Shown here piece after piece: positions 6,518 through 56,204 of a stretch of DNA of 64,000 nt. The notes under the pieces were generated by a model that did not search any database, had not been told where the DNA came from, and saw only the letters and a program-made list of their open reading frames with translations. The first letter of the stretch is position 1, and every line of letters starts with the position of its first letter. Origin of the DNA: Xiphydria camelus (Eukaryota > Arthropoda > Insecta > Hymenoptera > Xiphydriidae); contig OY783191.1 in NCBI GenBank assembly GCA_963678675.1, forward strand, positions 25,192,955 to 25,256,954, written 5' to 3'. The position numbers and the translations under genes are program-made.

Positions 6518-7303
6518 TTCACCCCAATTTTTGTTTAATACAAGTTTTTGGAAGGCTAGCCTTGTCGAAAACCACTACAGCGGACTGAACACTACAGTGG
6601 TCAGTAGTGGTTTCTACAATAGTGGTCAGTAGTGGTATACAGTGGTGAGAGAATAGTGGTCAGTAGTGGTATACAGTGGCGAATAGTGGCATGCAGTGGT
6701 ACGTAGTGGTAAGAAGTGGTAAGTAGTGCACATGTAATGGTTATACTATTTTTTTATTGAATCATATAAAAAGGGTACAAAATTTAAATTATACGATGGA
6801 TGTATCACTTCTGCTCCCGAAAACTCTGCAATCACGCGAATTGAAGAAAGGTATAATACCTACCTAGATAAATTTAAATGTTACTTATAGAAGACAATGC
6901 AATGGTAGATGACCTCTTTGGTTGATATTATTGGATACCGTTGAGATTCTCGTGATTGTAGACCCGCGTGCTTAAATTTTAAATTTAAACTTGCATTTTC
7001 TAGTAAAAGAGCGAAGGGAGAACAAAATTTTTCCGACGTTTCTATGAGCTTCTATCCTCCTATTAAAAAAGCACTATAATCTAAAATGTGTCGTGCGAAA
7101 TTACCTAGCAGGGAAAGACTCACTTATAAAAAAAGAAGAGAGATCTATTAATTTTGATTCTCTCCAGAGCTCTGACTCAGATAAAATTATAATCATGATT
7201 CAATCTCACGCGTGGAAAGCAAGGCTACAATAGCCGTTCCTCGGAGCACCGTCTGACGCGAATGCTGCGACCCAGAGAAATTGAGCATCATCGAGTTCTT
7301 AAT

Positions 7304-7746
7304 CTAGAACGAATCATCGAGCGTCAACGTCGCGGTGGAATGTCTACTGTCCGGCGATTGCATTGCAATATATCGTTTCCGTAAGATCTCTTGAAGGTCG
7401 TTCCAAGGGCTGTTTTCGCGTTTGGCTCGCAAAGGTCTCTCACCCGGCCATCTGAAAAACACGTTTAAAAGCCCACTGTGAACAAAATCAATCCTTCGCA
7501 GCCACGACATTCTGACAATGCGAAACTCCTCTTTGTTCCTGGCGAATTAAAAGTTTACCGCGATAAAATTGTTTAATCATACCTTGCGACGAGTTTCAAT
7601 TTCACTTTGTCGATGTCTTTCAGTATATCGCCCATTAATTTCTGGGAGATCAGTGGCGGTTTATGCCGATCGACGAACTTGTAATCTTGTATATTAGCTC
7701 TCTTTGCGATGTGAGGAGTCGTCGGAGGTGGCAGAGGTGGCCGCAT
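7304..7746 (-). CDS. Captured mitochondrial fission regulator-like gene fragment, copy 1 (open frame)
   Basis: Two exons on the minus strand, 7746-7583 and 7451-7304, join at phase 2 through a 131-bp GT-AG intron to give an uninterrupted 103-codon frame. It begins with a proline run (MRPPLPPPTTPH), continues with RHKPPLISQKLMGDILKDID and KVKLKLVAR, then WPGERPLRAKREN and LQEILRKRY, and ends LTLDDSF. The order poly-Pro, L-K-D-x-x-K-V-K-L, R-x-P-G-x-R-P, K-R, then an amphipathic helix matches the C-terminal part of the mitochondrial fission regulator family (MTFR1/MTFR2); this is from recall of the family, not a search. Copies 2 and 4 read RSPGE at the exon join, closer to the family RSPGG, so W here is probably derived. 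Whether it is transcribed is unknown. Confidence 0.65.
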
Positions 7747-7798
7747 ATAATAATAACTAATTAAAAGTTTTAACATTACGATCAAAACGATTACTTAC

Positions 7799-8160
7799 AG
7801 TAATTAGCATTGATCCCAAAGCAAGAAATCTTAAAGTTGGCAATAATTTCGTTGCTGGCTGAATTGCTGCATTTCTTTGCGACCTCGGTGCAATGCGATA
7901 TCGTATTTGTCCCAATAATCTCTGGCCGGTTTTGTTTTTCCAAACGAAATCGAGTGAAGAATTCTACATCATTGTAAGTATTCTGCGAAATAGTCAACTC
8001 TGGAATAGTTTTGTATTAGATATTGTTTATAAATTAATAGGTATAGGTATCTTTTATTTGCTTACCGGACACGTATTTTCTTCGGATGTCTCATTCTTGG
8101 TAATACGTCAATGTCTTCTTCAGATGATGATTGAAAAACTGGTATATCAAACAACTCCAT
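7799..8160 (-). pseudogene. Harbinger transposase N-terminal fragment (HARBI1-like), copy 1
   Basis: Exon 1 (8160-8066) starts at an ATG and encodes MELFDIPVFQSSSEEDIDVL; after a donor GTAAG, exon 2 (7999-7799) begins RVDYF. The block YNDVEFFTRFRLEKQ is the conserved opening of HARBI1-type nucleases. The two halves of exon 2 are in different frames because a short insertion separates RVDYF from YNDVEFF. The catalytic DDE part is absent: the sequence runs directly into the captured MTFR-like piece. Confidence 0.75.
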
Positions 8161-8496
8161 TTCAAAATTAATAACAATTTACCACAACGATCAGGTTATG
8201 ACTATGTCAAGGAAGAATATAGACACAAACAAAAAGTTAGGTTATACAGAGGATAGATAGCTTATCCCAAGATGAAACTGCCAGATAAGTTATGTCTGCA
8301 TTTATTCCAAAGTTTATGCTATTCCAGACTTATATCATACTTGTAAAACGCTTGCGTACTGCAGGTTATTCTCAGTATAGCGCTATACCGCGTTTATACC
8401 GTGTTGGTAAAACCGGCCCTAAATATCACTTTTGGATCACTGCTCACCACCATTGAACCACTACTGACCATCATTGAACCACTGCTCAGCACTATA

Positions 8497-8834
8497 GGGC
8501 GATTGGGTAACTGCACAAAACAGATAGAGTGCCATCTGTGGCACGCACCAAGCATTAAGTAGATGCCCGTGGTATAAGCGCTGTTTACACGTTATTTTGG
8601 ATAATAATTGAAGTGTTTTACCCATGAGATTTAATCAACATGGCCTCAATTATAATAGAATGTGGATTTCAAAGCATTCAAATAAATTCTTTCCGTGGAA
8701 AATCGTTATCAAAAGGTAAATACAAGCAGCGCCACCAAGCTGGGTTTCTTGGCGAAACTTGGATGTACATTCTCTATATGTACACGTGTAACACAAACAA
8801 AAGCTACGTTTGTAGAAGTACGCTAGAGCCCTAT
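8497..8834. mobile_element. MITE inserted in capture element copy 1
   Basis: Copy 2 of the host element reads CACCACTATTGTGCC (around 15853) where copy 1 is split as CACTAT plus about 340 bases plus TATTGTGCC. The insert begins AGGGCGATTGG and ends CTAGAGCCC. Its last 100 bases (TTTCTTGGCGAAACTTGG, ACAAACAAAAGCTACGTTTG) recur inverted at 23861-24036, so it belongs to a repeat family. Confidence 0.7.
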
Positions 8835-8902
8835 TGTGCCACTACTCAGGTTTTCAGTAGTGGTTGAAAATATTCTGTAGTGTTCTGTAGTGGTTTTCGA
8901 CA

Positions 8903-13150: not shown

Positions 13151-13213
13151 CCCTTGTCGAAAACCACTACAGCGGACTGAACACTACAGTGGTCAGTAGT
13201 GGTTTCTACAATA

Positions 13214-14030
13214 CCCAGGTAACAAACTAACGTGAAATTAACGTCATTTTTTGGTCAGATCTGGTCATAGACGACGTCAGTAAAAGATGTATAAATGACG
13301 TTAAAAGTACGTTCGAAAGTCACATCCCACTGACGTCATTTAATGACGTCTTTCTAACGTTCTTTATGACGTGAAATATGACGTTTAATTTTAGCGATTT
13401 TTTTAGTGATTGTGTAAAAAATGACGGCTCTGAAAGGTTCTCATCTGCTGCACGCTCCTGTGGTATTAAGCATTACTATTGGTGTTCATATGAAGTTTGA
13501 TGAATAAATATATGTTGCTTTTCCAGTCAATAAGAAAGAGCTTAAATAAATAAGATTTTATAATTGTATTATTCTTTTCTCAACATTTTTCTAAATTTAT
13601 GATTGCATCTTTTGATAAATATTCTTGCATAGACGCAAATTGATATTAATAAATAAATAATTATATGAATGTTTATAGAAACGACCGCAATATAAAAAAT
13701 CTTACTTTTATTTATTACAAAAAAAACGTACTGGTAAAATGGTACAGAGATATAAGAATCGCGAGAATTAAAGTAGACCACACTATACAAATATTTTTAT
13801 ATTATACATTATAAAAAAATATAAAAATATTCAATGTATATTGTATAATAAGTAGTTATTTTTAAATTTTATTACGACGTAAAAATAACGTCTTTTTAAC
13901 GTCATATTTAAGGCGTCTTAAAGACGTTTCTTGAATGACGACATTAAAACGTCATTTTTTGGTAGAATGACGTCGTCGACGAAATATGCCCTAAAAGTGA
14001 CGTCAAGTTTACGTCAGCTTGCTACCTGGG
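13214..14030. mobile_element. TA-inserting MITE, CCCAGGTAGC family, copy A
   Basis: It begins CCCAGGTAACAAACTAACGT and ends GACGTCAGCTTGCTACCTGGG-like (short TIR CCCAGGTA). The TSD is TA (13212-13213 and 14031-14032). The uninterrupted target TTTCTACAATAGTGGTCAG survives in capture copy 1 near 6602. The outer arms are packed with TGACGT/ACGTCA words on both sides; the middle is AT-rich and non-coding. Other copies: 41260-42237 and 52938-53341. Confidence 0.9.
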
Positions 14031-14671
14031 TAGTGGTCAGTAGTGGTATACAGTGGTGAGAATAGTGGTCAGTAGTGGTATACAGTGGTGAATAGTGGCA
14101 TGCAGTGGTACGTAGTGGTAAGGAGTGGTAAGTAGTGCACATGTAGTGGTTATACTATTTTTTTTATTGAATCATATAAAAAAGGTACAAAATTTAAATT
14201 ATACGACGGATGTATCACTTCTGCTCCCGAAACTTTGCAATAAATGTTACTTATAGAAGACAATGCAATGGTAGATGACTTCTTTGGTTGATATTATTAG
14301 ATACCGTTGAGATTCTCGCGATTGTAGACCCACGTGCGTAATTTTAAATTTAAACTTGAATTTTCTAGTAAAAAAGCGAAGGGAGAAAACAAAATTTTTT
14401 CGACGTTTCTATGAGCTTCTATCCTCCTATTAAAAAAGAACTATAATCTAAAATGTGTCGCGCGAAATTACCTAGCAGGGAAAAACACATTTATAAAAAA
14501 AAGAAGAGAGATCTATTAATTTTTTGATTCTCCAGAGCTCTGACTCAGATAAAATTATAATCATGATTTAATCTCACGCGTGGAAAGGAAGGCTACAATA
14601 ACCGTTCCTCGGAGCACCATCCGACGCGAATGCTGCGACCCAGAGAAACTGAGCATCATCGAGTTCTTAAT

Positions 14672-15114
14672 CTAGAACGAATCATCGAGCGTCAACGTCG
14701 CGGTGGAACTTCTACTGTCCGGCGATTGCATTGCGATATATCGTTTCCGTAAGATCTCTTGAAGGTCGTTGCAAGGGCTATTTTCGCGTTTGACTCACAA
14801 AGGTCTCTCACCCGGCGATCTGAAAAACACATTTAAAAGCCCACTGTGAACAAAATCAATCCTTCGTAACCACGACATTCTGACAATGTGAAACTCCTCT
14901 TTGTTCCTGGCGAATTAAAAGTTTACCGCGATAAAATTGTCTAATCATACCTTGCGACGAGTTTCAATTTGACTTAGTCGATGTCTTTCTGTATATCGCC
15001 CATTAATTTCTGGGAGATCAGTGGCGGTTTATGCCGATCGACGAACTTGTAGTCTTGTAAATTAGCTCTCTTTGCGATGTGAGGAGTCGTCGGAGGTGGC
15101 AGAGGTGGCGGCAT
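14672..15114 (-). pseudogene. Captured MTFR-like gene fragment, copy 2 (one nonsense codon)
   Basis: Same two-exon arrangement and same exon lengths as copy 1 (164 and 148 bases; 15114-14951 and 14819-14672). The exon join gives RSPGE, the family-like form. Exon A has TAA in place of the Lys codon in KDIDKVK, so the frame is closed. Confidence 0.65.
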
Positions 15115-15166
15115 ATAATAATAACTAATTAAAAGTTTTAACATTACGATCAAAACGATTACCTAC

Positions 15167-15528
15167 AGTAATTAGCATTGATCCCAAAGCAAGAAATCTT
15201 AAAGTTGGCAATAATTTCGTTGCTGACTGAATTGCTGCATTTCTTTGCGACCTCGAAGCAATGCGATGTCGTATTTGTCCCAATAATCTCTGGCCGGTTT
15301 TGTTTTTCCAAACGAAATCGAGTGAAGAATTCTACATCATTGTAAGTATTCTTCGAAATAGTCAACTCTGGAATAGTTTTGTATTAGATATTGTTTATAA
15401 ATTAATAGGTATAGGTATCTTTTATTTGCTTACCGGACACGTATTTTCTTCGGATGTCTCATTCTTGGTAATACGTCAAAGTCTTCATCAGATGATGATT
15501 GAAAAACTGGTATATCAAACAACTCCAT
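15167..15528 (-). pseudogene. Harbinger transposase N-terminal fragment, copy 2
   Basis: Same two partial exons as at 7799-8160, with YNDVEFFTRFRLEKQ readable near 15340-15296. The catalytic domain is missing and exon 2 is frame-disrupted before that block. Confidence 0.7.
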
Positions 15529-16215
15529 TTCAAAATTAATAACAATTTACCACAACGATCAGGTTATGACTATGTCAAGGAAGAATATAGACACAAACAA
15601 AAAGTTAGGTTATACTGAGAATAGCTAGCTTACCCCCCAATGAAACTACCGGATAAGCTGTGCCTGCATTTATTTCAAAGTTTATCCTATTCCAGAATTA
15701 TACCATACTTGTAAAACGCTTGCGTACTGGTTATTCTCAGTATAGTGCTATACCACGTTTATACCGTGTTGGTAAATCCGGCCCTAAATATCACTTTTGG
15801 ATCACTGCTCACCACCATTGAACCACTACTGACCATCATTGAACCACTGCTCACCACTATTGTGCCACTACTCAGGTTTTCAGTAGTGGTTGAAAATATT
15901 CTGTAGTGTTCTGTAGTGGTTTTCGACACGGGATATATATATATAGCTTAAGCTTTTAGAATCTTTTAAAGGTGTCTGATCTTGAAAAAAGTTAGTTCCA
16001 TATTTTTTATTATACCAATTATACCGGATTGTTATTAATGATACCGTAATTTTATGTCGCATAGTTCTGATTAAAAATCTCTAGGAATATTTGCATTGGG
16101 ATAACATAGCTAATATAAATATTATGAATATAACGATTTTTATAAATAAATGTAATCATAAATTCTATTCTAATATAGGGACAGTACTGGTTACTAACTT
16201 TTCACAAAAATTGTA

Positions 16216-17494: not shown

Positions 17495-18988
17495 ATTTAA
17501 ATGTGTATGTAATCTACAAGATAAGGGGATTTTTATTCACTTTATATAAATAAGAAAAGGGTTGACATATCGAAAAAAATATTCGTAAAACTTATATTTC
17601 TTGTTTTTACAAAAATGATTGCGGAGACTAATTCTCAAAAAGTTCCAAAAACCTCCTTTTAAGCTTAGCATTTTATTAAAGCTTGTACATTCCTCTTAAT
17701 ACCTACGTATCGTTTTATTTGCTCAGGGCTGCTCAAACCAAACTATAAATATTTTCGTTATGAGGGAGCGAAACGCCCGAATGACGAATTCTATTTGTTG
17801 TCACTAAGTCTCAAATACGAGGTTGACGGGGTTCGAGGCTGGGTGTTGGGGGGATCGAGCTCCCAACACTTTGCCTCTCGAACCTCGTCAACCTCGTATT
17901 TGACACTTAGGGCCGGTTTTACCAACAGGTATAAACGCGGTATAGCGCTATACTGAGAATACCCATAAGGCTTATTGCTGGTTATTCTCAGTATAGCGCT
18001 ATACCGCGTTTATACCGTGTTGGTAAAACCGGCCCTTAGTGACAAAAAATAGAATTCGTCATTCGGGCGTTCATAACGAAAATATCTATAGTTTGGTTTG
18101 AGCAGCCCTAAGCAAATAAAACGATATATAGTTATTAAGAGGAATGTACAAGCTTTAATAAAATACTAAACTGAAAAGGAGGTTTTTGGAATTTTTTGAG
18201 AAATAGCCTCCTCAATCATATGTGTAAAAACATAAGAAATATATAAGTTTTACAAATATTTTTTTTCGGTATGTCAACCTTTTCCTTATTTATATAAAGT
18301 GAGCCCCCAAACACCCCGCCTCGAACCCCGTCAACCTCATATTTGAAACTTAGTGACAAAAAATAGAATTCGTCATTCGGGCGTTTCGCGCCCTCATAAC
18401 GAAATTATCTATAGTTTGTGGTTTGAGCAGCCCTGAGCAAATAAAACGATATATAGGTATTAAGAGAAATGTACAAGCTTTAATAAAATACTAAACTGAA
18501 AAGGAGGTTTTTGGAATTTTTTGAGAAATAGCCTCCGCAATCATATGTGTAAAAACATAAGAAATATAAGTTTTACGAATATTTTTTCGGTATATGTCAA
18601 CCCTTTTCTTATTTATATAAAGTGAGCCCCCAAACACCCCACCTCGAACCCCGTCAACCTCGTATTTGACACTTAGTGACGAAAAATAGAATTCGTCATT
18701 CGGGCGTTTCGCGCTCTCATAACGAAAATATCTATAGTTTGGTTTGAGCAGCCCTGTGCAAATAAAACGATATATAGGTATTAAGAGGAATGTACAAGCT
18801 TTAATATAATACTAAACTGAAAAGGAGGTTTTTGGAATTTTTTGAGAAATAGCCTCCGCAATCATATATGTAAAAACATAAGAAATATAAGTTTTACGAA
18901 TATTTCTTTCGGTATGTCAACCTTTTTCTTATTTATATAAAGTTAATAAAAATACACTTACCTTGTAGATTATATACACATTTAAAGT
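17495..18988. mobile_element. Foldback element with one arm tandemly amplified
   Basis: The outer ends are inverted: AAATGTGTATGTAATCTACA at the left and its near-complement TGTAGATTATATACACATTT at the right. The left arm (to about 17845) pairs with the right arm after a centre at about 17850. The right arm consists of nearly three head-to-tail copies of a unit of about 322 bases (same phrase GAGCCCCCAAACACCCC at 18301 and 18624; unit ends near 18298, 18621 and 18941). A 126-bp MITE lies in the first right-arm unit. It is non-coding. Confidence 0.85.
17910..18035. mobile_element. Harbinger-type MITE with TTA target duplication
   Basis: A 126-bp palindromic element with ends GGGCCGGTTTTACCAACA and their complement, flanked by TTA (17907-17909 and 18036-18038). 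Neighbouring tandem units at about 18348 and 18670 keep the empty site CACTTAGTGAC. The terminal sequence continues GGTATAAACGCGGTATAGCG and is the same as the Harbinger end inside the capture elements (for example 19945), so this is an internally deleted derivative of that Harbinger. Confidence 0.9.
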
Positions 18989-19395: not shown

Positions 19396-20190
19396 ACAAT
19401 CATTTATTTACTGTTTCATTAACCGTCAAGAGAAATTTCTATTTTTGTCCACTCTCCCATATAACTGAAGCACTGTGCGTCGGCCCTGCCGCCAGTATAT
19501 CGCTAAGCCAGTCGAACCCACCAGTCGGTCGCACAGTGGGACGAAATCCCAAAAAGCTGGCCAAAAGTCGAAAACGCGTATAATCGAGGTTAAATTGAGT
19601 ACTCTGAGGTTTTTGGGGTCGGGTTTTGGATGAATCAAAAGCAGCGTTATTTTTCAAGTGGCTGTAAAATCAACAATTTTCAAAATGTTAAAAAGTCCTT
19701 CGAAATACGCTTAAACATCGACAAAGACTACAATATATCCAAATTTGAGCAAAATCTGAAATGTTACTCCAAAAAGTGTTCGATTTGGTATGGAACCCGT
19801 GTCGAAAACCACTACAGAATACTACAGAATATTTTCAACCACTACTGAAAACTTGAGTAGTGGCACAATAGTGGTGAGCAGTGGTTCAATGATGGTCAGT
19901 AGTGGTTCAATGGTGGTGAGCAGTGATCCAAAAAGTGATATTTAGGGCCGGTTTTACCAACACGGTATAAACGCGGTATAGCGCTATACTGAGAATAACC
20001 AGTACGCAAGCGTTTTACAAGTATGATATAAGTCTGGAATAGGATAAACTTTGGAATAAATGCAGACATAACTTAAGTTATCCGGCAGTTTCATCGTGGG
20101 ATAAGCTAGCTATCCTCAGTATAACCTAACTTTTTGTTTGCGTCTTTATTCTTCCGTGACAGAATCATAATAACTGTTATTAGTTGTGAA

Positions 20191-20546
20191 ATGGAGTTGA
20201 TTGATGTGCCAGTTTTCGAATCATCATCTGATGATGAAATTGACGTCTTACAAAGAATGAGAAATCCTAGGAAAATACGTGCCCGGTAAGTAAATAAAGG
20301 ATACCTATACCTACTAATTTATAACCAAATCTAATACAAAACTATTCCAGAGTTGACTATTTCGAAGAATACAATGATGTAGAATTCTTCACTTGATTTC
20401 GTCTGGAAAAACAAACCTGTCAGAGATTATTGGGACAAATACGACATCGCATTGCACCGAGGTCGCAAAGAAATGCAGCAATTCAGCCAGCAACGAAATT
20501 ATTGCCAACTTTAAGATTTCTTGCTTTGGGATCAATGCTAATTACT
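20191..20546 (+). pseudogene. Harbinger transposase N-terminal fragment, copy 3
   Basis: Exon 1 (20191-20285) encodes MELIDVPVFESSSDDEIDVL; donor GTAAGT; exon 2 (20351-20546) encodes RVDYFEEYNDVEFFT, an in-frame TGA, then FRLEKQTCQRLLGQIRHRI and later LRFLALGSMLITV. This is the standard N-terminal region of HARBI1-type transposases. Here exon 2 keeps one frame apart from the stop, making it the best-preserved copy. The catalytic DDE region is absent. Confidence 0.8.
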
Positions 20547-20606
20547 GTAAGTAATCGTTTTGATCGTAATGTTCAAACTTGTAATTAGTTATTATTATAT
20601 GCCGCC

Positions 20607-21056
20607 GTCTAATCTAGGAATGGGCAGACAGGCGAGGAATCTAATGCCTCGCCTAGCACAAAAGAGAGCCAGGTTACTAGTGAACATGAACAGGATAAGC
20701 CTGAGCATTACAATCAGACTATTAACTGGTCACGGAAAATTCAACTCACACTGCAGGAGACTAGGTCTATCGGAAACGGATAGATGTCGATACTGCAAAG
20801 TGGAGAGGGAAGATGCCCAGCACCTGCTGCTGGAATGTCCAGCACTAGGGGCTTATAGACACCGTCTGATAGGCGAGGCTTTTCCTAGCCTGGAAAGGGC
20901 TAGAGAGCTAGGGGTGGAATGGATATGTGGACTGGCCAAAAAGGCCAAGATGCAAATCTAAGGTACACCCCTAATCACAGCGGGGCTACAATAAAACTAT
21001 TAAGTTTTCGGTGGCGTTCAGGGATGATTAGCGTCCTAACCGCTTTTATTATTATT
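20607..21056 (+). mobile_element. 5'-truncated LINE 3' end inserted in capture copy 3
   Basis: A 450-base insert flanked by a 16-base duplication, ATTATTATATGCCGCC, at 20591-20606 and 21057-21072; copies 1, 2 and 4 lack it. It encodes the C-terminal tail of a non-LTR retrotransposon polyprotein: LSITIRLLTGHGKFNSH, then CRYCKVEREDAQHLLLEC (a C-x2-C-x8-H-x4-C knuckle) and CPALGAYRHRLIG, ending at TAA near 20961. The 3' end is an ATT-rich tail rather than poly(A). Confidence 0.85.
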
Positions 21057-21064
21057 ATTATTAT

Positions 21065-21507
21065 ATGCCGCCACCTCTGCCACCTCCGACGACTCCTCAC
21101 ATCGCGAGGAGAGCTAGTTTACAAGACTACAAGTTCGTCGAACGGCATAAACCGCCACTGATCTCCCAGAAATTAATGGGCGATATACTGAAAGACATCG
21201 ACAAAGTCAAATTGAAACTCGTCGCAAGGTATGATTAAACAATTTTATCGCGGTAAACTTTTAATTCGCCAGGAACAAAGAGGAGTTTCGCATTGTTAGA
21301 ATGTCGTGGCTGCGAAGGATTGATTTTGTTTACAGTGGGCTTTTAAACGTGTTTTTCAGATGGCCGGGTGAGAGACCTTTGCGAGCCAAACGCGAAAATA
21401 GCCCTTGCAACGACCTTCAAGAGATCTTACGGAAACGATATATCGCAATGCAATCGCCGGACAGTAGAAATTCCACCGCGACGTTGACGCTCGATGATTC
21501 GTTCTAG
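21065..21507 (+). CDS. Captured MTFR-like gene fragment, copy 3 (open frame)
   Basis: Exons 21065-21228 and 21360-21507 (164 and 148 bases, as in copies 1 and 2) join through a GT-AG intron into an open 103-codon frame: MPPPLPPPTTPHIARRASLQ, KPPLISQKLMGDILKDIDKV, then WPGERPLRAKRENSP and LTLDDSF. Similarity to mitochondrial fission regulators rests on the proline run, the L-K-D-x-x-K-V-K-L block and R-x-P-G-x-R-P. Downstream 21508-22061 looks like the captured 3' UTR and ends with AATAAA (22056-22061), just before the terminal array. Expression is unknown; the 5' half of the gene is missing from the element. Confidence 0.65.
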
Positions 21508-22812
21508 ATTAAGAACTCGATGATGCTCAATTTCTCTAGGTCGCAGCATTCGCGTCGGACGGTGCTCCGAGGAACGGCTATTGTAGCCTTGCTTTCCACG
21601 CGTGAGATTGAATCATGATTATAATTTTATCTGAGTCAGAGCTCTGGAGAGAATCAAAATTAATAGATCTCTCTTCTTTTTTTAATAAGTGAGTCTTTCC
21701 TTGCTAGGTAATTTCGCGCGACACATTTTAGATTATAGTTCTTTTTTAATAGGAGGATAGAAGCTCATAGAAACGTCGGAAAAATTTTGTTCTCCCTTCG
21801 CTCTTTTACTAGAAAATGCAAGTTTAAATTTAAAATTTAAGCACACGGGTCTACAATCGCGAGAACCTCAACGGTATCCAATAATATCAACCAAAGAAGT
21901 CATTTACCATTGCATTGTCTTCTATAAGTAACATTTAAATTTATCTAGGTAGGTATTATACCTTTCTTCTCAATTCGCGTGATTGCAGAGTTTTCGGGAG
22001 CAGAAGTGATACATCCGTCGTATAATTTAAATTTTGTACCCTTTTTATATGATTCAATAAAAAAAATAGTATAACGATTACATGTGCACTACTTAGCACT
22101 TCTTACCATTACGTACCACTGCATGCCACTATTCTCTCTCACCACTGTATACCACTACTGACCACTATTCACCACTGTATACCACTACTGACTACTATTG
22201 TAGAAACCACTACTGACCACTGTAGTGTTCAATCCGCTGTAGTGGTTTTCGACAAGGGAATGACCCAATTGATAGTTATTCGCAAGAATTTTTGCGAAAA
22301 ATTTTTGCAATGCCGCGTGATTGGTGAATTAACTAAAACTCCCGATAAACATAATTTTTGCGAGTCAAATATTTTTATAATTGTACTTCGCGAGTAAAAT
22401 AGACGGAAATACTCATTATGAGGGATTTTTCGATTATTTTAACCCCCGCGCACCCCTTGCAAAAATATGCAAAAATTCTATAAAGTGTATTTCGGAATGG
22501 GCTATGCATTGGTGAAAATTGTGGGTTTTCGCAATTTTTTTTCGCGAATTTTGATTCGGAAAAATTGCAGAAAAATTCAGAATGTGTATCATGATGAAAA
22601 ATACTGTGAATTTTTTCAGATTTTTCTGAGGATTAGTTTTGGTGAAAAAGCGAAAAAACGAAAATTGCAACATTCGCCATTACGAATTCAATATGGCGGA
22701 TAATGGTCCGAAACTTTGACAAAAATATACTTAGGCCGAGTACTTTTGAAAAGTGATTAGAAATTTAAATCGGCTCTGGGGCCGAACTCAAATGGAAACC
22801 CGGCTATGCCCT

Positions 22813-24036: not shown

Positions 24037-24374
24037 TATAGCTATGGAATCCACAAATGTAATTAAGGGGATTATAGATATGTAAACAAATTCATTTTTA
24101 GTGGTATTAGAATATTGTAGCGGAAACCTTAGAATATTTTTCTCTGTGCATTCGCTGATAAAGTTTAGAGATGATAATTCTTAGAAGGTTTTCTACGAGT
24201 ATCAAAATGCGCGAGCTTCCGTTCGTTCGGAAGAACAATATCGAGACTATTTGGCAGCTCTATATGTGTCTGATGCGACAGTATAAATAATAAAAATGTT
24301 ACGTAGCGTCAATACGGAGGAAAAAATTAACACGATAATCACTTTTAACTATTTACAGCTGCACGTAAACTGCG

Positions 24375-27300
24375 ATGCGTGCCCTAATACGTGGAATGGT
24401 GTACTGTGCTCTATGGTACGGTAGCATAGTAGCGGGTTTCCTTTTCATCGCTTGCCCGTTGTTGCCGTTGCTATTACTTAGTCCTCCAAGGTTCAGGAAA
24501 TGCGGGGATTTGCTCTTTTCCTGCTGGGAACTTTATCCCACGGTAAGCGTCTCGCATTCGGTTTTCCACACACACACACACACACACAAAAGTCCGAATC
24601 TTGTTCTCGTGGGGAATGGGATTCGTTTTCCTTGCATTAACCGTTGTTCCTTTTATTTCCAGGCACTTTTGGAATTGTTCGGCGTAAAGGTGGTGGTTTC
24701 TGGCGATCACATTTCTCCCGACGAGTCTGCCATTCTCGTGATGAACCATCGTACCAGGGTAGACTGGAATTTCTTGTGGGCGGCGATGTATCAGGCTTGC
24801 ATGCCGGGAGTCGCTGCTCATAAACTGAAATTCATTTTGAAGGACCCGATTCGGCACATACCGGGTCCAGGTCGGTTATAAGTATCACTGAGGCAATTAT
24901 TTGTACCATATGAAACGGAACTTTTTAACCTAATGCTAGAACTCCACTGATGGCAGACCATTCCAAGAATATAAGATTTAACTCATTCATTTCGTTGAGT
25001 TCGATATTCGAGGAGGATCTTAGTGAATTTGGTTTTTCATACTAATTTCATACTGTTTATTTGTAGATATTTTATAAAGTGAGGTAAATTAACTCACAGG
25101 TCGAGATCATTTTGTTCTACAATATACCATAAGTATTGGAAAAATAAGGATAAGACATCTAACGTATTGCCTATCGTGATCAAAATAACATAAAAATTCC
25201 ATACTTATACAGTATGCCAAATATTGTTACATATTATGCTTTTTTCTCATTTTTGCACAAAAAACAGGTATTATAGATACAAAGTATTTTCACTTTGCGA
25301 TTCTAACATTACGTTGCATCGGTCAAAAGTTTCAGAATTCGTAGATCGCTTATTATCGCGATGAACTCGAGAAAGTTGCGACGTCGATATAAATTCACCA
25401 GAGTGTCTAGCGGTCAGGGAAATCTGGAAAACCTGGAATTGTGAGGGAATTTGATATTTGTGGAGGTGTTTTTCAAAAAGCGTTATTTCCAAAAACTTCG
25501 TCTACTGAGGTACAGGTGGCATCACGTTCTACATGACGTAGTGCTACAGTTTTCTTGCTTTCCTGCAAAAATATGCCAAATGGAAATAACGCTTTTTGAA
25601 AAACACCTCCACATGTCTGGAAAAATCAAGAAATTGTCAGGAAATCCTGAAATTTTTCTGGATTTTTTCCTCGAAGTTTTTAGAACGGCTTTTACGGAAA
25701 TCGGGTTTTTGCGAACTGCAAATCCGTTATATCGCGTTGCTACACTACTATAGTTCTAAACGTTTGGAAAGTGTAGGTTCTTATTGAGCTCTGGTCAGCT
25801 ATTATGCAAAATTGCTCCAAACAACTCACTTGAAGGGTCCGCGGTCAAAACCTGTTAACTGACATTTTTTTTCGAAATTGACTTTTTTGTATTTTCTGGA
25901 ACATTTTTTTTTATGCAGTCAATATGCCACCAACGAAACTGCGAAATTCCTTTTAGTTTTTTTTAAATTGATTTTTGAAAATCACATTTCGGTATCTACA
26001 GCCTAGTCCGCGGTCAAAACCTGTTAAGGTATTTCAATGGTGACAATCGTATTCAAATTTTTTGCTTCAGGACTTAGTACAACTGATCACAAACTGTATT
26101 AGGCACGAACGAAACTTTTGAGTAACTCTGTACTCTGAGCTCCTTGCTACACAGAGACCTCCTGTGTACAAATGTACCTCACACATATATACTGCCTGAC
26201 CTGATAATCGTGGCAACAGTGCTTCTCTCTCCTTAGAATACCGCTATGTGCCTGCCACTACGTGCCGTAGTGGGGGCTGCCGCGCCATGCCACTGGCTAT
26301 CCCCTCTCCGGTAGCAAAAGTACCAGTTACAGGAGAGGGCTAAATCAGCTGTGCGCACTGTTGCCACATCATCGTTACTCGTCCCCCACCACTTTGCAGT
26401 TTCTAGAAAAATCTCAGTTTTTAAGTTATAATTCCTCTGAAACTATATGGCTCAGCACTTCCAGTTTTTGTGAACATAATCCTACAATATCATTTTATTC
26501 GCCGTTAGTTTTTCTTTAACATTGTAAGATTGGTTCTGTAGTTATAGCTCAAAACGTCACTGAGGTACCGTCTTTCTACATGTTAGCCATTGAAAGTCAG
26601 TGTAGAAAATGCTACTTTGAATTAACATTTTCTTTTAAACTACATGGCTCAGCCTTTTGAAATTTTGGGAATCGATGGGTAATATTTCAGTCTTTTGATT
26701 GGCAAAATTTCATGAGATTCGTAAGAAAAACGCAAAACCATGGAAATACCTTAACTACTTATGGCGTTTTATGAGAAATTCGCGCTTTTTTTCAAATCGG
26801 CTCAGTTCACTCGTAAAATAAGAGAGGGAGACACGTGTCAGTGTCTCTGCAGTGAAGTGTATCTGTGTGTCAGAAGTTTTTTGAGGTTAATTTCACAGAT
26901 TCCTCCAGATTGTTACCTACAGATCGCGAAAAGGACGAAGGTGAGTAACGTGTCTTAGTTATTAATACTCAGGAAACTTTTACAATAATCAATTTAAAAT
27001 TTTTACAAGCACATCAATTTTCGGCATGTCATTCCAAATATTTTGATATATAAAACTTGTCCGTAGCTTCAAAATCATAGGAGAAAAATGCGAGCCCGAG
27101 ACAAAAATCGGCAGCGTCGTTCGAAAGGCGAGGAATACATGACGACAAAGGGCAAAAAAAAGCTCGCAGTAAAACAGCCTTCCTTTAGGGTAAGTGTTGG
27201 GTTTTGGTTATTCAAATAACGATTGCAGTGGTTAAATGATACTTAACAACGGATTTATTACAAGAGTAGAAAAGTATGGTGACCGCATGGCAGCGCGAGC

Positions 27301-33300: not shown

Positions 33301-36300
33301 GAGGCTCTAGAAGCAATCCATTCGAAGTAATCAAAATGACGAAGTTCTACGATTTTAAAAACGCAGCAGATTGGTTTCTGAATACGACAAAGATAGCGCT
33401 GAGCAGCGTTTGTTGGTTTCGAATCACAAGCGTAGGAAAAATTGAAATAAAAAGAAATTTCAATCAGAACAATTTTGAAAAATTCACCATTTGGAAACGC
33501 GGTTAGTATAGCAAAAAATAAAAAAAATATAATCATAAATGAAATATGTAAAATAATAAGTATTAATTTGTTGCAGGGAGGAACTCAGACGATTTGAACC
33601 AATTCGAATTCGACAAAATAAACGCCAAAGAATGGTCAGCGGAAAAGCAAAAAGATCTCAGGAAAATGATGACAGTAATCCCTCAAGAAAAACAAGAATT
33701 TTTCGAAGAATTACTATAAAGTCATTTTCAGCAATAATAAAAAAGATTGAAAATTAAAAAATTAATTAAAAAAATACTTTAGCATGTTTATTTCTACAAA
33801 ATGCCATGATTTTACTCCATATAAAGTGACAGATATTCTCTATCAAGCCACTTTGAAGAACGGAAAGCGGTAAAATACTGCAGATATAACAGGTTTTGAC
33901 CGCGAGACCCCCTGTAGATAACATATGTATAGGTTCAACTCTTCATATATCATCCAATTTTGATTTAAATATTATGAAACTAACGTTTATTACTTTCCTT
34001 TAGTTAATGAATAAAAAAGATTTGACGGTTTAAAAAAATATTGAAAATTCCATAAATAATAACAATTTAACAATAAGGTATTTCAATGGTGACAGTCGTA
34101 TTAAAATTTTTTACTTCAGGACTTAGTACAACTGATCACAAACTGTATTACGCACGAACGAAACTTTTGAGTAACTCTGTACTCTGAGCTCCTTGCTACA
34201 CAGAGACCTCCTGTGTACAAATGTATCTCACACATATACACTGCCTGGCCCGATAATCGTGGCAACAGTGCTTCTCTAGAATACCGCTATGTGCCTGCCA
34301 CTAAGTACGTGCCGTGTAGTGGGGGCTGCCGCGCCATGCCACTGGCTATCCCCTCTCCGATAGCAAAAGTACTACTGACAAAGGGACCCTTCGAAAGTCG
34401 GAGCACCGATTGTAATGAATTTTTTTTTATAAATAAAGGGAAGTCCCCTGAGTAACGCTCATACTTTACTTTTGTCCAATGCGCCTTTGTTTATCTAAAA
34501 AAAAAGAAATTGTTTTGACGCGTAAAGTGTGTACTGTAATATAATACTCGGTATCCAAGATAACGGCGTGGCGCAGTCGGCTAAGGCATAGACTTACCAC
34601 GCGGGCGTCCCGCGTTCGATTCCCGTGCATGCACTACCTTTTTTTTTTTTTGCCAATTTCGAACTTTTTCACTTTTTTTATTATTCAAACTATTGCTACT
34701 AATCTTTAGAAGTAAAATAAATCTAGGTAACGTAAATAAAAAATTTTTTGCATTTAAAACTATATTTTGAACGTTTGTTACTAATCATTCGAAGGCAAAT
34801 TAGTGAAGTTTTGGTGACAATTTCTATGCTTCACATTAAATGACGTCAATGCCGGGTAAGTGCAAATTACTCATTTTCCTACGAAATATTCATTAAATTT
34901 GGTGGTAATTCACTCGTGACGTCAACACCAGGTAAGTGTCATTCGAAGGCAATTAGTGAAATTTTGGTAACAGTTTTTTCGCCTTACCTAGATTTATTTT
35001 ACTTCTAAAGATTAGTAGCAATAGTTTGAATAATAAAAAAAGTGAAAAAGTTCGAAATTGGCAAAAAAAAAGATAGTGCATGCACGGGAATCGAACGCGG
35101 GACGCTCGCGTGGTAAGTCTATGCCTTAGCCGACTGCACCACGCCGTTATCTTGGATACCGAGTATTACATTACAGTACACACTTTACGCGTCAAAACAA
35201 TTTCTTTTTTTTTTAAATAAACAAAGGCGCATTGGACAAAAGTAAAGTATGAGCGTTACTCAGGGGACTTCCCTTTATTTATAAAAAAAAATTCATTACA
35301 ATCGGTGCTCCGACTTTCGAAGGGTCCCCTTGTGAGTCCCATAGTCACAGGAGAGGGCTAAATCAGCTGTACGCACTGTTGCCACATCATCGTTACTCGT
35401 CTCCACCACTTTGCAGTTTCAAGAAAAATCTTAGTTTTTAAGTTATAATTTCTCTGAAACTATATGGCTCAGCACTTCCAGTTTTTGTGAACATAATCCT
35501 ACAATATCATTTTATTTGCCGTTAGTTTTTCTTTAATATTGTAAGAGTGGTTCTGTAGTTATAGCTCAAAACGTCACTGAGGTACCGTCTTTCTACATGT
35601 TAGCCATTGAAAGTCAGTGTAGAAAATGCTACTTTGAATTAACATTTTCTTTTAAACTACATGGCTCAGCCTTTTGAAATTTTGGGAATCGATGGGTAAT
35701 ATTTCAGTCTTTTGATTGGCAAAATTTCATGAGATTCGTAAGAAAAACGCAAAACCATGGAAATACTTTAACAGGTTTTGACCGCGGACCCTTCACTTCT
35801 ACCCAGGGCGCATAATATACCTCATCGACTTATCGGAAGAGACGTTGAGAGTGCAACCCACGTTCCCAAATCCGTCTTGTTTTACACTGTAAACTATTTT
35901 CAAATTATCATAATGAATCAATTATTGAGTTTAGAATCTGAACTCAATGATTGCTTTGGTAATATAAAAGAATAACTTTAGATTAGCCAGGGAAAAATAC
36001 ATACGTATATATTGGGCCTGGAAATCCTGGAAAAGTCAGGGAATTTCAAATTCTGATTCTCTGCTAGACACCCTGCTCACGCTTCTCAATTACGTAAGCT
36101 CGTTTTACTAAACTGTTCATTCCACGATCCTAACAGGATGGATAATGCAAATGAACGGCTTCCTTTACATAACTCGCCGTTGGGAAGAGGATCAAGGACG
36201 GCTCGCTCGTTCCCTCGATTATTTGGTGGCCCTTCGTCGGCGAACCCAATTGTTAATATTCCCGGAAGGAACGGACTTGACACCTACGAGTAAAGATAAG

Positions 36301-39300
36301 TCCGACAAGTACGCGGTGCAGCACGGACTGTCCCAATTCTCTCACACTCTTCACCCAAAAACGACGGGGTTCAGCTACCTGACACGCCACCTCCAGCGGG
36401 CCAGCTACTTGGACGCCGTTTACGATTTGACCATCGCGTATCCCGATTATGTACCGCAATCCGAGATTGACTTGGCGAGGGGCAAATTTCCAAAAGAGGT
36501 GCATTTTCATATAAAGCGTATTCCTTCCAAAGACGTACCGAGCGACGAAGCGACATTAAGACATTGGCTGGAAGACAGGTGGTATCTGAAGGAGGAAACG
36601 CTCAAGGAATTTTATCGGAGGAAGTCCTTCCTCGCCGAAGCTTGGCCCATGGCGACAGTTACACCGTTGCGGGCCGCTTTTGGTTTTTGGAGTTTGTTAA
36701 CAGGTGAAGCGTCTATGTATATTGTATTTTCTATTTGTTGTCCTTGTGCTGAAATCCCTATTGACAACGTTACACCTCGGTCTATTCTATTATAAAAATT
36801 AATAGAGAATAGAAACTATAATAGAAAGCTTTGCAGGTTCGGTGCAAGTTTTTATGATGTTTAATGCGACAATAACAGGGGATGAAAAACGATAGTTTCA
36901 CATACTACGATTTACTCAGATAACAATTTGACGCATGATAACAAGTCCTCAAGTAGATAACTCCTCATTTGCGACTTTATTTATACGGAAATCATGAGTT
37001 TGCAAAATTTGATCAAATTGGCTTGTCTTCTTGCAGCAACTTTTGCAAATTCGTGATTTCAGTCCAGAACAAATCGTAAATAAGGAGGCACCTGCACGAG
37101 GATTTACCATTATGTTTTCTATTGTTATCCGGGTAGATTCAAATTATTTTCAGTTTCCTATCATTTTTTACCGGAAGTTTTAAGTAAAAAATTACTGCGC
37201 CGAATTGTAGTTCGAATTAAGGAGGCAGCTCGTGGCAATAAAGTTTTATTGTGAAACTAATACAATAATTTGTTTGGTACTTTGTCATATGTTTTTAGTA
37301 GTGGAAAAGAAAACTAAAAATATGAAAATAATAAGTAATGAAACTTGGAGATCGATAGGAAAGAATATTAAATTTTCGATAATATTCCAATTTTGCCTCA
37401 TATCACATACATCATTTTGGCATATCGATGTATTAATGTCACGAGATTAATTCTTGCTTTTTGTAGCAACGCGTAAGGCCTGGGCAGACAGAAAGCGGAC
37501 TGTCCGCGCGGACTGTATTCGAGGATAGGGCGCGGACAGTCCGCGTGGACATGCGTCCTCAGCGAGAGCGAACTAGGTGTAAATTTTCACAGAGTCCGCG
37601 TGGTCAGTCCGTTTTCTGTCTGCTCAGGCCTTTATAGTCCAGGGAAATAAGACTTCCTCTGCGGAATGAGAGAAAGCAAGCTGGATTTTTGCAGAGATCT
37701 TCGTTTTGATGTTCTAATGAAGCACCAAAAAGTCTCATATGCTCACCCTTGTGCGTCTCGAGATATCAAAGGTCAAAGGTCATGAAAATCAGTTTTTTGC
37801 GAAAATCTCGCTTCCGGTTAGTCTGATGTCTTAAGAAGTTTTAACAAAATTTACGTAAAACAGCATTCTCTACAAGTTTGATTCTATACATTTTTTTGTA
37901 ATATCAACCGTTTTCGAGATATAGCGTGAAGGAGCGGGAGCACGCATTTTTGAATAGGTCATAGTGTATATACTACCCAATTATGGAGAAAGACAGTAAT
38001 TAGCAAAACAAATCGAAGTGCGTTTCTTGGTACCATTGAATATCTTCAATTACTTTGTAACCAAATTTTGTACCCTTTCGTAGTGTTAAAGGTAGGTTTT
38101 ATTAGTAATCTGTCTTGGAAACCCTTCGGCAAAAGGCATCGAAGTTAAAGTTGATTTTCCACAAATTTGTTGGTTAGCAGTTACTGCCTTTCTCCATAGT
38201 TGGGCAGTATACTGCTTAGCTATAACTATAAATGCACTTTTCTTAGTAGTTATACTAAAAAATTGAATTCCTATTATTATTTCAGTTAAAAGCTTGTTCA
38301 TTTATAAAAAAGAATATAATAAATAATTAATAACAAAAAATGCATCCTTTTCCGCACCACTTTTGAAGTAGAATGCAAGGCGCGTTTTTTTAGACATGGC
38401 TTCTGAACAGTAACCGATTCACGTCTTTCGCAATTGCCAGCGTGCTTTATGTTTCCTCTTCTTCGTCCCCGTCTTCTTCAGGTTCCTCAAGTAGTTCTAC
38501 CACAATATTGTTTTCATCATCACACGCTTCCGCTGTATCTAATTGCAAAATCTCTTCAGGTTCATGGCCACTGAAGTCTTCAATCTAAGTTCTAACATAT
38601 TTGTTATATTTGATGGTTAGTCAGACAATTTTAAAAATATAAAAGCAATGGAGCAATTAAGACGAACTACTGCACTGTCTACATCTTATGAAGTTCGCTT
38701 TGATGCAACAATGCATGTGCCAATCAGCCAAGAAAAGTTCTTATCAAACCGATGCAACAAAAACATTTTTATTGAAATGCTTATTGAACAACTACAAGCT
38801 GCTAACATCGCTACAATATAAGCCAAGGATGATGCGGATGTCCTAATCATCGAAACAGCCATCGAAGTATCGGAAAGAGAAAGAACCGCCGTCATCATTA
38901 GAGAAGACATTGATTTGCTTGTTCTTTTAGGGGGGGGGGGGGGAGGATGGGGTCTAAAAATCAATTTCTTAAATTGCCTTTTCTTATAGTAAAACATTTA
39001 AAGAATGTTGCTTCCAAATTTCAAGTCAATCGGAGCAAAACTCTCAGTCATAGATCTTTAAAAAACGAGATGCTAGAGCCGAAAACAACACTATTGCCAC
39101 CTGCCCCAGACGAACTATTAAACACAATCTTCTGCAATTGTAAAAAAGGATGTGGTGCGCAGTGTGGACGTAGAAAAGTAGGACTACCATGCTCTACAGC
39201 TTGTGGTTAGTGTCACGGACAGGCATGCCTGAATCCTTCCTCAGAATTGCAAGACATTGAAAACTTCAGTGGCCATGAGCCTGAAGAGATTTTGCAATTA

Positions 39301-53342: not shown

Positions 53343-53495
53343 GCCAGATAGAAAAGTTCCTCCAGAATTTCGGTACAATGCCACGGTAGGAATATCAGGT
53401 TGTACCGACACGACGTGCTTCGACAAGGTCTGCATCAACTTTGGCGGTATATTGGCGGCACTGCATTAATCCTGTGGCAGACTTTTCTATCTGGG
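53343..53495. mobile_element. 153-bp MITE
   Basis: Ends CCAGATAGAAAAGTTCCTCC and complement of CCCAGATAGAAAAGTCTGCC. Contains palindromic TGGCGGTATATTGGCGG. It joins a truncated MITE on the left and LINE sequence on the right. Confidence 0.75.
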
Positions 53496-53500
53496 TTTGT

Positions 53501-54288
53501 TTATTGTAAGGTTCTTGGAGATGAAGATATCGAGTATATCGGGCTTTTTATTGAGGTCTGATAGGAAGTTGGTGTAACATGATGAAGCGTCAATGGAGAA
53601 CTTGTGTGTTTATAAGAGATTAAGAGGTGTATTATATTTTGAGTTCTTGGCGCGACACGCCAAGAATCATGTTTGGCATTGAGATCCCCTGCCAAAAGCG
53701 TAGGTACGTTGTGGTCAAAGAGGGTATTTCGGAAAGGTTGTTAGTGGACGGGGGGAGGGGAGGGGGGATTAACAGGCTACGATTTTTAATGGGTTACCGT
53801 TATGAATGATTATGATCCCGCATGACTCGAGCGATGGCTTAGTCGAGGATAATGTTACGGACGATCGTCGCTACACCACCGTGGCTAGAGTTCGGGCGGT
53901 CCAGCCTATAGGTAGTGAAGTTAGGGATGTACAATTTCTGATGAGCTTTAACGTGGGTCTCTGTTATGCAGGCCATATCAACAGCGGTCTCTTCGAGAAG
54001 TTGGGTTAGAAGGAGAGTTTTATGCATGCCGGATAGGACGCTAGGATACCGTTAGCGTTCCAGTTAAGGATGGTGAGTTGGCCTTTATTGGAGTTGCGGG
54101 GCGTTTGGTTGTTGGAGTGCCCATACGAGTTGGGTGGCGAAGTCGCGAAAAAGCTGTAAGACAGCTTGGTTTTGGAGCTGAACGGCTGGGGCCGGGAATT
54201 GTTGTGCGGGTTGACGCTTGGGGAGAGGAGGGGCCACTGGCAGCTTGCGCTTTAAGGAGGTCCATCGGCTAATCAAGTTTCTATACAT
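53501..54288 (-). pseudogene. Fragment of a Jockey-type LINE (ORF1 end and endonuclease)
   Basis: Read on the minus strand: the tail of ORF1 (54288-54085, SRWTSLKRKLPVAPPLPKRQ), then an endonuclease start (54027-53839, MACITETHVKAHQKLYIPNF, YRLDR, SHGGVATIVR) and, in a shifted frame, MAGDLNAKHDSWRV (53695-53650). ETH, R-x-D-R, GG-x-A and GDLNAKH are the expected EEP endonuclease motifs in order. Frameshifts and loss of reverse transcriptase make it a relic. Confidence 0.8.
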
Positions 54289-54289
54289 T

Positions 54290-54985
54290 TGCTTGAAATT
54301 TGGACCATATGTTGTTATAGTTCTATCCTATACATTCATCAAATTATTAGAACTGTGCCCATACCAAAGTGCAGATATTCACTTTCAATGTTGGGAGTTT
54401 TAACATGCAAGGTATAGGCAAAACATAAGCTAGAGGGCCGTTTTCATTTATAGCAGCAGAAATTGTCTATATATTTTGTTAAAAAACTAATATATGATGT
54501 ATGATGATGTTAGGAATGACATATTACAAGATAGGGATACCCACCCATACCGTTTTTACGTAATTGTAATTCAAAGTACTTAACTTGACAGCATCGCTCT
54601 ATGGAAAGGAGAGCAGCAATCTTCGCTTCTTTCAACGTGCGCAAGTATGAGTGTATACATATAGGACGCAGGCTACCACCCTAGTGTTAGTATGTACTGT
54701 CTACGTTAAAAGTTGTAAAGTATGAAGAGGGGCGCGCTATAGGGAAAGAGTATAGAACAAGCGACTAAGCTTTTGGTTACGATTACAGCCCTTGAACGTC
54801 CTTAAGGAGGTTCGACTATCAGACGAAAATCAACTTACAGCCCTAATTTTTTTATATGATATACACGAATACTTTACACAACTAATACGAAAATTTGAGC
54901 AATATAGACCGTCTAGTTTCTTCGTTATTTTATTATAAAGTTGACCACTTTTAACATATCGCCTTATGGCAGACGATTGTACTAA
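54290..54985. other. Intergenic DNA, no gene recognised
   Basis: No recognisable coding or repeat content before the next capture element. Confidence 0.45.
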
Positions 54986-56204
54986 CCCTTGTCGAAAACC
55001 ACTACAGCGGACTGAACACTACAGTGGTCAGTAGTGGTTTCTACAATAGTGGTCAGTAGTGGTATACAGTGGTGAATAGTGGTCAGTAGTGGTACACAGT
55101 GGTGAATAGTGGTCAGTAGTGGTATAAAGTGGTGAATAGTGGCATGCAGTGGTACGTAGTGGTAAGAAGTGGTAAGTAGTGCACATGTAATGGTTATACT
55201 ATTTTTTTTATTGAATCGTACAAAAAGGGTACAAAATTTAAATTATACGATGGATGTATCACGTCTGCTCCCGAAAATTCTGCAATCACGCGAATTGAAG
55301 AAAGGTATAATACCTACCTAGATAAATTTAAATGTTACTTATAGAAGACAATGCAATGGCAGATGACTTCTTTGGTTGATATTATTGGAAACCGTTGAGA
55401 TTCTCGCGATTGTAGACCCGCGTGTTTAAATTTTAAATTGAAACTTGCATTTTCTAGTAAAAGAGCGAAGGGAGAACAAAATTTTTCCGACGTTTCTATG
55501 AGCTTCTATCCTCCTATTAAAAAAGAACTATAATCTAAAATGTGTCGTGCGAAATTACCTAGCAGGGAAAGACTCACTTATAAAAAAAGAAGAGAGATCT
55601 ATTAATTTTGATTCTCCAGAGCTTTGACTCAGATAAAATTATAATCATATGATTCAATCTCACGCGTGGAAAGCAAGGCTACAATAGCCGTTCCTCGGAG
55701 CACCGTCTGACGCGAATGCTGCGACCCAGAGAAATTGAGCATCATCGAGTTCTTAATCTAGAACGAATCATCGAGCGTCAACGTCGCGGTGGAATGTCTA
55801 CTGTCCGGCGATTGCATTGCAATATATCGTTTCCGTAAGATCTCTTGAAGGTCGTTCCAAGGGCTGTTTTCGCGTTTGGCTCGCAAAGGTCTCTCACCCG
55901 GCGATCTGAAAAACACGTTTAAAAGCCCACTGTGAACAAAATCAATCCTTCGCAGCCACGACATTCTGACAATGCGAAACTCCTCTTTGTTCCTGGCGAA
56001 TTAAAAGTTTATCGCGATAAAATTGTTTAATCATACCTTGCAACGAGTTTCAATTATTTGACTTTGTCGATGTCTTTCAGTATATCGCCCATTAATTTCT
56101 GGGAGATCAGTGGCGGTTTATGCCGATCGATGAACTTGTAGTCTTGTAAACTAGCTCTCCTTGCGATGTGAGGAGTCGTCGGAGGTGGCAGAGGTGGCGG
56201 CATA
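54986..56204 (-). mobile_element. Gene-capturing TIR transposon, copy 4 (truncated)
   Basis: Left end CCCTTGTCGAAAACCACTAC, the longest AGTGGT array of the four copies (55007-55190), captured 3' region and both MTFR-like exons. It stops at the ATG of the captured exon (56201-56204), where the CAGGGTGTCCG sequence begins; Harbinger exons and right end are missing. Confidence 0.85.
55758..56203 (-). pseudogene. Captured MTFR-like gene fragment, copy 4
   Basis: Exons 56203-56037 and 55905-55758. The join reads RSPGE. Exon A has a 3-base insertion making TAA between KVK and LKL, so the frame is closed; exon B is intact. Confidence 0.65.

Follow-up and report, generated by a model that had tools for sequence, protein, structure and literature searches.

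The 64,000-nucleotide stretch of the Xiphydria camelus genome analysed here (assembly GCA_963678675.1, contig OY783191.1, positions 25,192,955 to 25,256,954 of the forward strand; hereafter the window) contains four copies of a dispersed transposable element that carries a piece of a host gene for a mitochondrial fission regulator (MTFR). We consider it likely that they belong to a non-autonomous, composite ('Russian-doll') Pack-TIR family, bounded by terminal inverted repeats (TIRs), in which a Harbinger element captured the MTFR piece, came to be nested in a second TIR transposon and was spread as part of the composite. In the first step, a PIF/Harbinger element would have taken up genomic DNA of the host MTFR gene at its 3' end; the segment begins within the poly-proline exon, spans the last intron and the last exon, and reaches into downstream DNA. 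This Pack-Harbinger would then have come to lie in a second TIR transposon (TIR CCCGTGTCGAAAACCACTACAG, ACCACT arrays, 2-bp target duplications), and a later deletion would have taken away its right Harbinger arm along with the distal 3' flank of the MTFR piece. In the third step, the composite would have multiplied, through a transposase acting on the outer ends, until well over a hundred copies existed.

A first account of the window made from its letters alone (the sequence-only reading) had described four copies with common ends, subterminal AGTGGT arrays and the same two exons and intron, three of them with a Harbinger 5' fragment. All four are real and belong to a dispersed family; sequences and termini agree with the positions given there, with copy 1 starting at 6560. 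Their parts and junctions were observed directly and are as follows (UTR, untranslated region).

6560-8902, minus strand (sense strand of the captured gene): copy 1, composite element
about 8496-8830: copy 1, foreign insert within the outer left end, about 330 nt long
7757-8419, minus strand: copy 1, Harbinger 5' block with TIR GGGCCGGTTTTACC at its outer edge and a broken transposase-gene fragment
6792-7756, minus strand: copy 1, captured MTFR 3' end, exon B being followed by 3' UTR
7583-7746 (exon A), 7452-7582 (intron), 7304-7451 (exon B), 7304-7306 (stop), minus strand: copy 1, exon structure
6560-6791, minus strand: copy 1, outer right end with ACCACT/AGTGGT array and TIR
13151-15932, minus strand: copy 2, composite element with both ends and AT/AT flanks
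about 14202-15124, minus strand: copy 2, MTFR part with two stop codons
about 13214-14030: copy 2, foreign insertion in the outer right end
17910-18036, no strand assigned: short Harbinger-type element on its own, bearing TIR GGGCCGGTTTTACC at either end and flanked by TTA
19796-22258, plus strand: copy 3, composite element with both ends and AA/AA flanks
19796-19944, plus strand: copy 3, outer left end with TIR CCCGTGTCGAAAACCACTACAG and ACCACT/AGTGGT array, ending in ..TTTA beside the Harbinger TIR
19945-20588, plus strand: copy 3, Harbinger 5' block
20612-21054 (approximate edges), plus strand: copy 3, retrotransposon-like 3' fragment (labelled by eye), inserted after capture
21055-22022, plus strand: copy 3, captured MTFR 3' end, with 3' UTR to 22022
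21065-21228 (exon A), 21229-21359 (intron), 21360-21507 (exon B), 21505-21507 (stop), plus strand: copy 3, exon structure
22023-22258, plus strand: copy 3, outer right end with a non-parental AATAAA (22056-22061), ACCACT array and TIR
54986-56204, minus strand: copy 4, reduced to the MTFR part (about 55246-56204) and the outer right end

In the window, exact matches to the 18-base terminus TGTCGAAAACCACTACAG or to its complement numbered seven, and no further site was present at up to three mismatches. They mark copies 1-3 at either end but copy 4 at a single end, so that the common ends hold for the first three copies only. AGTGGT/ACCACT hexamers clustered at the copy ends as described, and a Harbinger-like 5' block was common to copies 1-3. 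All four copies shared exon A (164 nt; 167 nt in copy 4 through an in-frame insertion) and a 148-nt exon B with an identical stop, preceded by a GT-AG intron (131 nt in copy 3). Copies 1 and 3 do keep the open frame of 103 amino acids with equal exon lengths (164/148 nt); the frame of copy 2 contains two stops and that of copy 4 a stop within its insertion. Copy 4 is without its Harbinger half because other sequence abuts at 56205, and an inverted repeat with 295-nt arms (98% complementary) and a 14-nt loop lies nearby at 56419-57022. In copy 3, the retrotransposon-like fragment separates the Harbinger part from the MTFR part; it is missing from copies 1 and 2 as well as from the two-part matches that a genome search with copy 3 gave.

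By homology, the captured piece comes from an MTFR gene (mitochondrial fission regulator, PF05308), of which it represents the 3' end. The 103-aa frame matched 19 database proteins, two of which (P0010 and P0011) carry PF05308 (Mito_fiss_reg), both above the cut-off; a Pfam search with the 103-aa frame alone gave no match. The parental gene, whose search had been proposed along with the MTFR1/2-like label, was found in the same genome at G000:C29 (about 5087012-5087767, i.e. ~5.087 Mb; L059 7013-7768). It bears introns and comprises an upstream exon (LSRSKPDLLEPISFG...), the poly-proline exon and a last exon ending in TLTLDDSF. Joined together, these three exons matched PF05308 with an E-value of 1.5e-5 and 25.7 bits, just below the whole-protein cut-off of 26.3, with the N-terminal part of the protein not included. 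The label thus holds as MTFR-like. That the frame might resemble neither MTFR nor any host gene, or be an ordinary transposon protein, was rejected on account of this parental gene with its further upstream MTFR exon. The MTFR part of the composite begins inside the poly-proline codons, retains the intron and the last exon, and stops in the 3' UTR at L059:8520. Exons and intron of L059 align with it, and the family thus has the parental host gene with a shared intron that is expected of a Pack-TIR. Because the intron was retained, the piece was captured as genomic DNA, and retroduplication was rejected. The sequence-only reading had drawn the same conclusion partly from a retained poly(A) signal. 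Splice sites (GT-AG) and stop codon are indeed kept, but the AATAAA at 22056-22061 lies 34 bases past the end of parental homology (22022), so the piece did not keep a poly(A) signal of its own; it is the intron that bears out the conclusion. The parental 3' UTR also contains an insert of 222 nt (L059 7785-8006) with inverted ends ACTGAGA..TCTCAGTG, flanked by TGA, which may postdate the capture because the compared copies are without it.

To place these copies in the genome (357 Mb, 38 contigs), we used the 103-aa protein and the DNA of copy 3 as queries; 150 of 1104 and 40 of 1366 candidates were scored, respectively, so that the resulting counts are lower bounds. The protein yielded at least 167 exon matches, from which at least 138 places on many contigs were derived (two last-exon matches included), and all 40 places scored with copy 3 matched. 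Allowing up to two mismatches, the outer terminus occurred 347 times genome-wide (180 + 167), compared with 0 + 0 for the reversed control; this number covers both ends because the right end is one base off the pattern. Among the first 100 exact left ends, 70 lay within 4 kb of a listed MTFR exon, and for 53 of these the distance was 800-1000 bases. For the other 30, 20 stretches were read that covered 21 of them. The outer left end joined a Harbinger block in 18 of these stretches, while the remaining two were broken, L100 soon after the start of the Harbinger TIR and L085 inside the outer end. Self-nested or tandem composites were encountered at L022, L030/L044, L054, L075 and L101. By exon matches and by termini, the composite family, whose copies the sequence-only reading had suggested counting, has well over a hundred members. 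We aligned 58 rows, namely the parent, a locus termed L060 and 56 composite copies (32 from the protein search, 20 from DNA similarity and four from the window; row L030 re-reads part of the L044 copy). The reference blocks measured 149 nt (outer left), 663 nt (Harbinger), 965 nt (MTFR) and 229 nt (outer right). Of 57 rows (copies and L060), 36 had all four on the same strand; 20 composite rows were without one or two blocks, some through the end of the fetched stretch or an intervening insert, and L060 lacked both outer ones. Most of the complete copies were 1.9-2.0 kb long.

Identical 2-bp flanks were observed at 24 of 33 left-right end pairs, with 13 different dinucleotides and a chance expectation of 0.098, while 3-bp flanks matched in none of the 33 (pairs were accepted with up to four mismatches per end; L022 supplied two of them). 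The 18-base termini and 2-bp flanks correspond to the TIRs and target duplications around captured DNA that characterize Pack-TIRs. CACTA/EnSpm (CMC) transposons have TIRs beginning with CACTA or CACTG, target duplications of 2-3 bp and subterminal repeat arrays. The 2-bp duplications and ACCACT arrays agree with this type, whereas the outer TIR starts with CCCGTGTCG and not with CACTA/CACTG. Any assignment of the outer transposon to a superfamily is hence putative, as is the source of the transposase acting on its ends.

PIF/Harbinger transposons are marked by a 3-bp TWA/TTA target duplication, a Harbinger-type TIR and a DDE transposase. In the composite, TTA adjoins the inner Harbinger TIR on one side only, the right side being deleted. 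The inner TIR also exists as an independent element, since the short sequence at 17910-18036 has it at both ends. The block codes for an N-terminal transposase fragment only, which gave one weak match, to the unnamed protein P0020 (E 3.1e-8, 45% over 64% of the query); Pfam searches with the Harbinger pieces and with P0020 gave no match, and we take the block to be probably PIF/Harbinger, in part by its resemblance to such elements. The frame across Harbinger exons 1 and 2 was broken in 50 of 52 covered rows, L060 included, by a frameshift in one block type and a stop in the other, and was open in two rows only via a shifted frame. A Harbinger-MTFR fusion protein was rejected as the likely product on these grounds. 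With this broken frame and a length of 1.9-2.0 kb in most of the complete ones, the copies lack a complete transposase, as non-autonomous Pack-TIRs do. A 4-nt insertion in Harbinger exon 2 was present in 36 rows, absent from 19 and uncovered in two (n = 57). Across positions of about 160-400, the Harbinger block appeared as a mosaic in copies 1-3 and in copies among L009-L078, with mainly two types and few mixed ones. The two types were ~85-89% alike over this interval versus 95-100% on both sides, and the MTFR parts were uniform. This pattern suggests that gene conversion or recombination with another Harbinger lineage may have taken place.

The order of events can be approached through L060 (G000:C10:32381500-32387500, read on the minus strand), which was observed to have the same Harbinger-to-MTFR join as the composites. 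Its MTFR part runs on to parental position 8944, ~410 bases beyond the composite 3' breakpoint, and an AATAAA of the parent lies close to where this longer capture ends. Immediately after the MTFR part, the 5' region of Harbinger recurs in inverted orientation, up to a Harbinger-like TIR at its end. Outer termini are missing from L060, and its left end has been lost to other repeats. Two intron deletions relative to the parent (12 and 25 nt) are common to L060 and the copies. Median noncoding distances were 7.4% between parent and L060, 6.8% between parent and copies, 4.7% between L060 and copies, and 3.2% among copies. From the structure of L060, the shared deletions and the order of distances, we infer that the Harbinger join came first and that the composite later lost the distal part. 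The TTA beside the Harbinger TIR, as around the short element at 17910-18036, suggests that the nesting may have occurred by ordinary insertion of the Pack-Harbinger; the manner of each capture and the order of nesting and deletion given here are likewise putative. Alternatively, the outer transposon could have taken up the Harbinger and MTFR fragments in one step, either independently or by a single template-switching event. Such a course would fit the 20 stretches read, among which no terminus was without the Harbinger block unless interrupted, and template switching is a published model for multicopy Pack-TIRs (PMC8277862). We nevertheless regard it as unlikely, since L060 exhibits the Harbinger-MTFR join without outer ends, together with the ~410 extra parental bases and the inverted Harbinger arm.

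The donor could also have been the MTFR orthologue of a related species, in which case the element would have arrived by horizontal transfer. The distance of ~7% between parent and copies at noncoding sites and the absence of the 222-nt parental insert from the compared copies are compatible with a foreign donor, but both are also expected if the capture happened in this lineage some time ago, before the insert, and a horizontal origin appears improbable to us.

We consider it most likely that the captured frame serves no function and has stayed open chiefly through the youth of the copies. Frame results are given separately by source because the protein search (32 of 56 rows) favours open frames. 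The MTFR frame was intact in 33 of 56 rows, comprising 16 of 20 DNA-chosen, 15 of 32 protein-chosen and two of four window rows; copy 4 was classed as an in-frame indel in this tally, despite the stop within its insertion. At the Harbinger-MTFR junction, 54 of 57 rows have the ATG that opens the 103-aa frame; L060 has ATT at this point, and two rows are uncovered. Median divergence among copies amounted to 3.3% in the exons, 3.4% in the 3' UTR and 2.3% in the intron. The dN/dS comparison between copies that the sequence-only reading had put forward was carried out as omega from parsimony counts of nonsynonymous (N) and synonymous (S) changes against a noncoding, CpG-aware spectrum, without five rows set aside for length (L029, L030, L041, L044 and L049). 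On internal branches, with 16 N and 17 S, omega was 0.40 (p 0.007, or 0.05 when CpG sites were left out). Terminal branches had 109 N and 66 S and an omega of 0.70 (p 0.014, or 0.034 without CpG); stop gains there numbered six, compared with 9.2 expected. When the DNA-chosen set was taken together with the window copies, the values were 0.39 (internal) and 0.58 (terminal); the protein-chosen set gave 0.77 and 0.75, neither significant. For the stem between parent and copies, which includes the parental gene's own evolution, omega was 0.12 (4 N, 14 S, p 3.5e-5), and the L060 branch showed 8 N and 4 S. Some values thus fell below 1, but the signs of constraint are weak, and we read the counts as mostly neutral decay of young copies, with a possible slight constraint.

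A stronger claim would be that the MTFR frame is expressed and kept by selection, yielding a short protein from the junction ATG that is of use to the element or acts on the MTFR pathway of the host. The intact frames (33 of 56 rows, 16 of 20 when DNA-chosen), the junction ATG in 54 of 57 rows and the omega values below 1, both overall (0.40 and 0.70) and in the DNA-chosen set (0.39 and 0.58), point in this direction. However, exon divergence equals that of the 3' UTR and exceeds that of the intron, six stops were gained on terminal branches against 9.2 expected, omega in the protein-chosen half was not significant, p rose to 0.03-0.06 without CpG sites, and the L060 branch carried 8 N and 4 S, all of which makes selection on the frame quite improbable. 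We would give little credence, too, to the notion that a host gene fragment handed between transposon superfamilies is translated and maintained as a benefit to the transposon; if true, the benefit could lie, for example, in interference with the host MTFR protein in germ cells, and the frame would be a host-derived transposon cargo gene in an animal. That the copies are segmental or satellite-like duplications and not transpositions, as the tandem or nested copies at L022, L030/L044, L054, L075 and L101 might suggest, is hardly credible and was rejected as the main route, being contradicted for most end pairs by the 24 of 33 matching 2-bp flanks, the shared termini and the spread over many contigs.

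Several points weigh against a Pack-Harbinger nested in a second transposon and spread as its passenger. Neither an autonomous copy nor a transposase of the outer element was found, where no search for the CMC family was made, and no cargo-free outer element occurred among the 20 stretches examined at termini that had no listed MTFR exon nearby; the outer transposon is therefore known only from the composite. The Harbinger label draws on the TIR, the TTA flanks, one weak protein match and a general resemblance, and the Pack-Harbinger stage rests on a single damaged locus, L060, with its left end lost. Finally, some low omega values (internal 0.40; stem 0.12, the latter with the parental gene's evolution included) speak against strictly neutral passengers.

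Elsewhere in the window, we noted a long terminal repeat (LTR) retrotransposon at 27195-31790, labelled Copia-like by eye, with a stop-to-stop frame of 1349 aa on the minus strand (27405-31454) between 229-nt repeats that are 100% identical. It lies between exon-like frames at 24369-24881 and 36112-36795 (NHRTRVDWNF, FPEGTDLTP), which we take to resemble a lysophospholipid acyltransferase gene. A frame with MHCFELRTANVDYYVGEDPLYG at 59183-59863 on the minus strand resembles, in our estimation, a region of protein kinase D. At 60957-61206 and 61609-61858, a 250-nt sequence is directly repeated with 100% identity (starts 652 nt apart); the pair is perhaps an LTR-type element that is small and very young.

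Gene capture by TIR transposons at high copy number is familiar chiefly from plants. Here, the parental gene, the ordered steps and a surviving intermediate make a route from gene to transposon to second transposon readable from sequence. Well over a hundred dispersed host-exon copies with splice and stop signals offer a natural setting for exon shuffling, and the composite copies, whose exons are 88-95% identical to the parental ones, are a possible source of small RNAs that could act on the parental gene. Among the listings and abstract openings of an open-licence library, we found no case of a captured gene piece passed between transposon superfamilies in an animal, and no paper that brings together a mitochondrial fission regulator, a transposable element and capture. 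Plant Pack-MULE and Pack-TYPE elements are likewise non-autonomous TIR elements with coding DNA, but in plant hosts (PMC8903248). The view of the sequence-only reading that animal examples are few held in part. Tan et al. 2021 (PMC8277862) report as many as 370 Pack-TIRs in 100 animal genomes, but only four of them are multicopy and none of these comes from an insect reference genome, with Ssk-FB4 in fly populations in addition. Those animal Pack-TIRs resemble the present family in being TIR elements with a host gene piece and a known parent, including multicopy cases with target duplications; they differ in that four cases are multicopy, whereas the present family has well over a hundred copies and two nested transposon families. 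The Drosophila Pack-MULE Ssk-FB4, as described in the same text, is also an insect case of a TIR-captured host gene with repeated transposition, but it comprises four polymorphic copies of a nearly whole gene, is MULE-like and makes target duplications of 9-10 bp. Turmoil-1, a Harbinger element of C. elegans, carries two exons and the intron of rsp-2 and a piece of cpg-3 (PMC2572040) and is thus likewise an animal Harbinger with host exons and their intron. Unlike the present case, its capture was into long inverted terminal repeats, and it exists as one complete copy and eight fragments; the abstract and Findings of that paper make no mention of a transfer to a second transposon. The kind of element described here (Pack-TIR, transduplication) is therefore known, and what is new is the probable two-stage route and the copy number.

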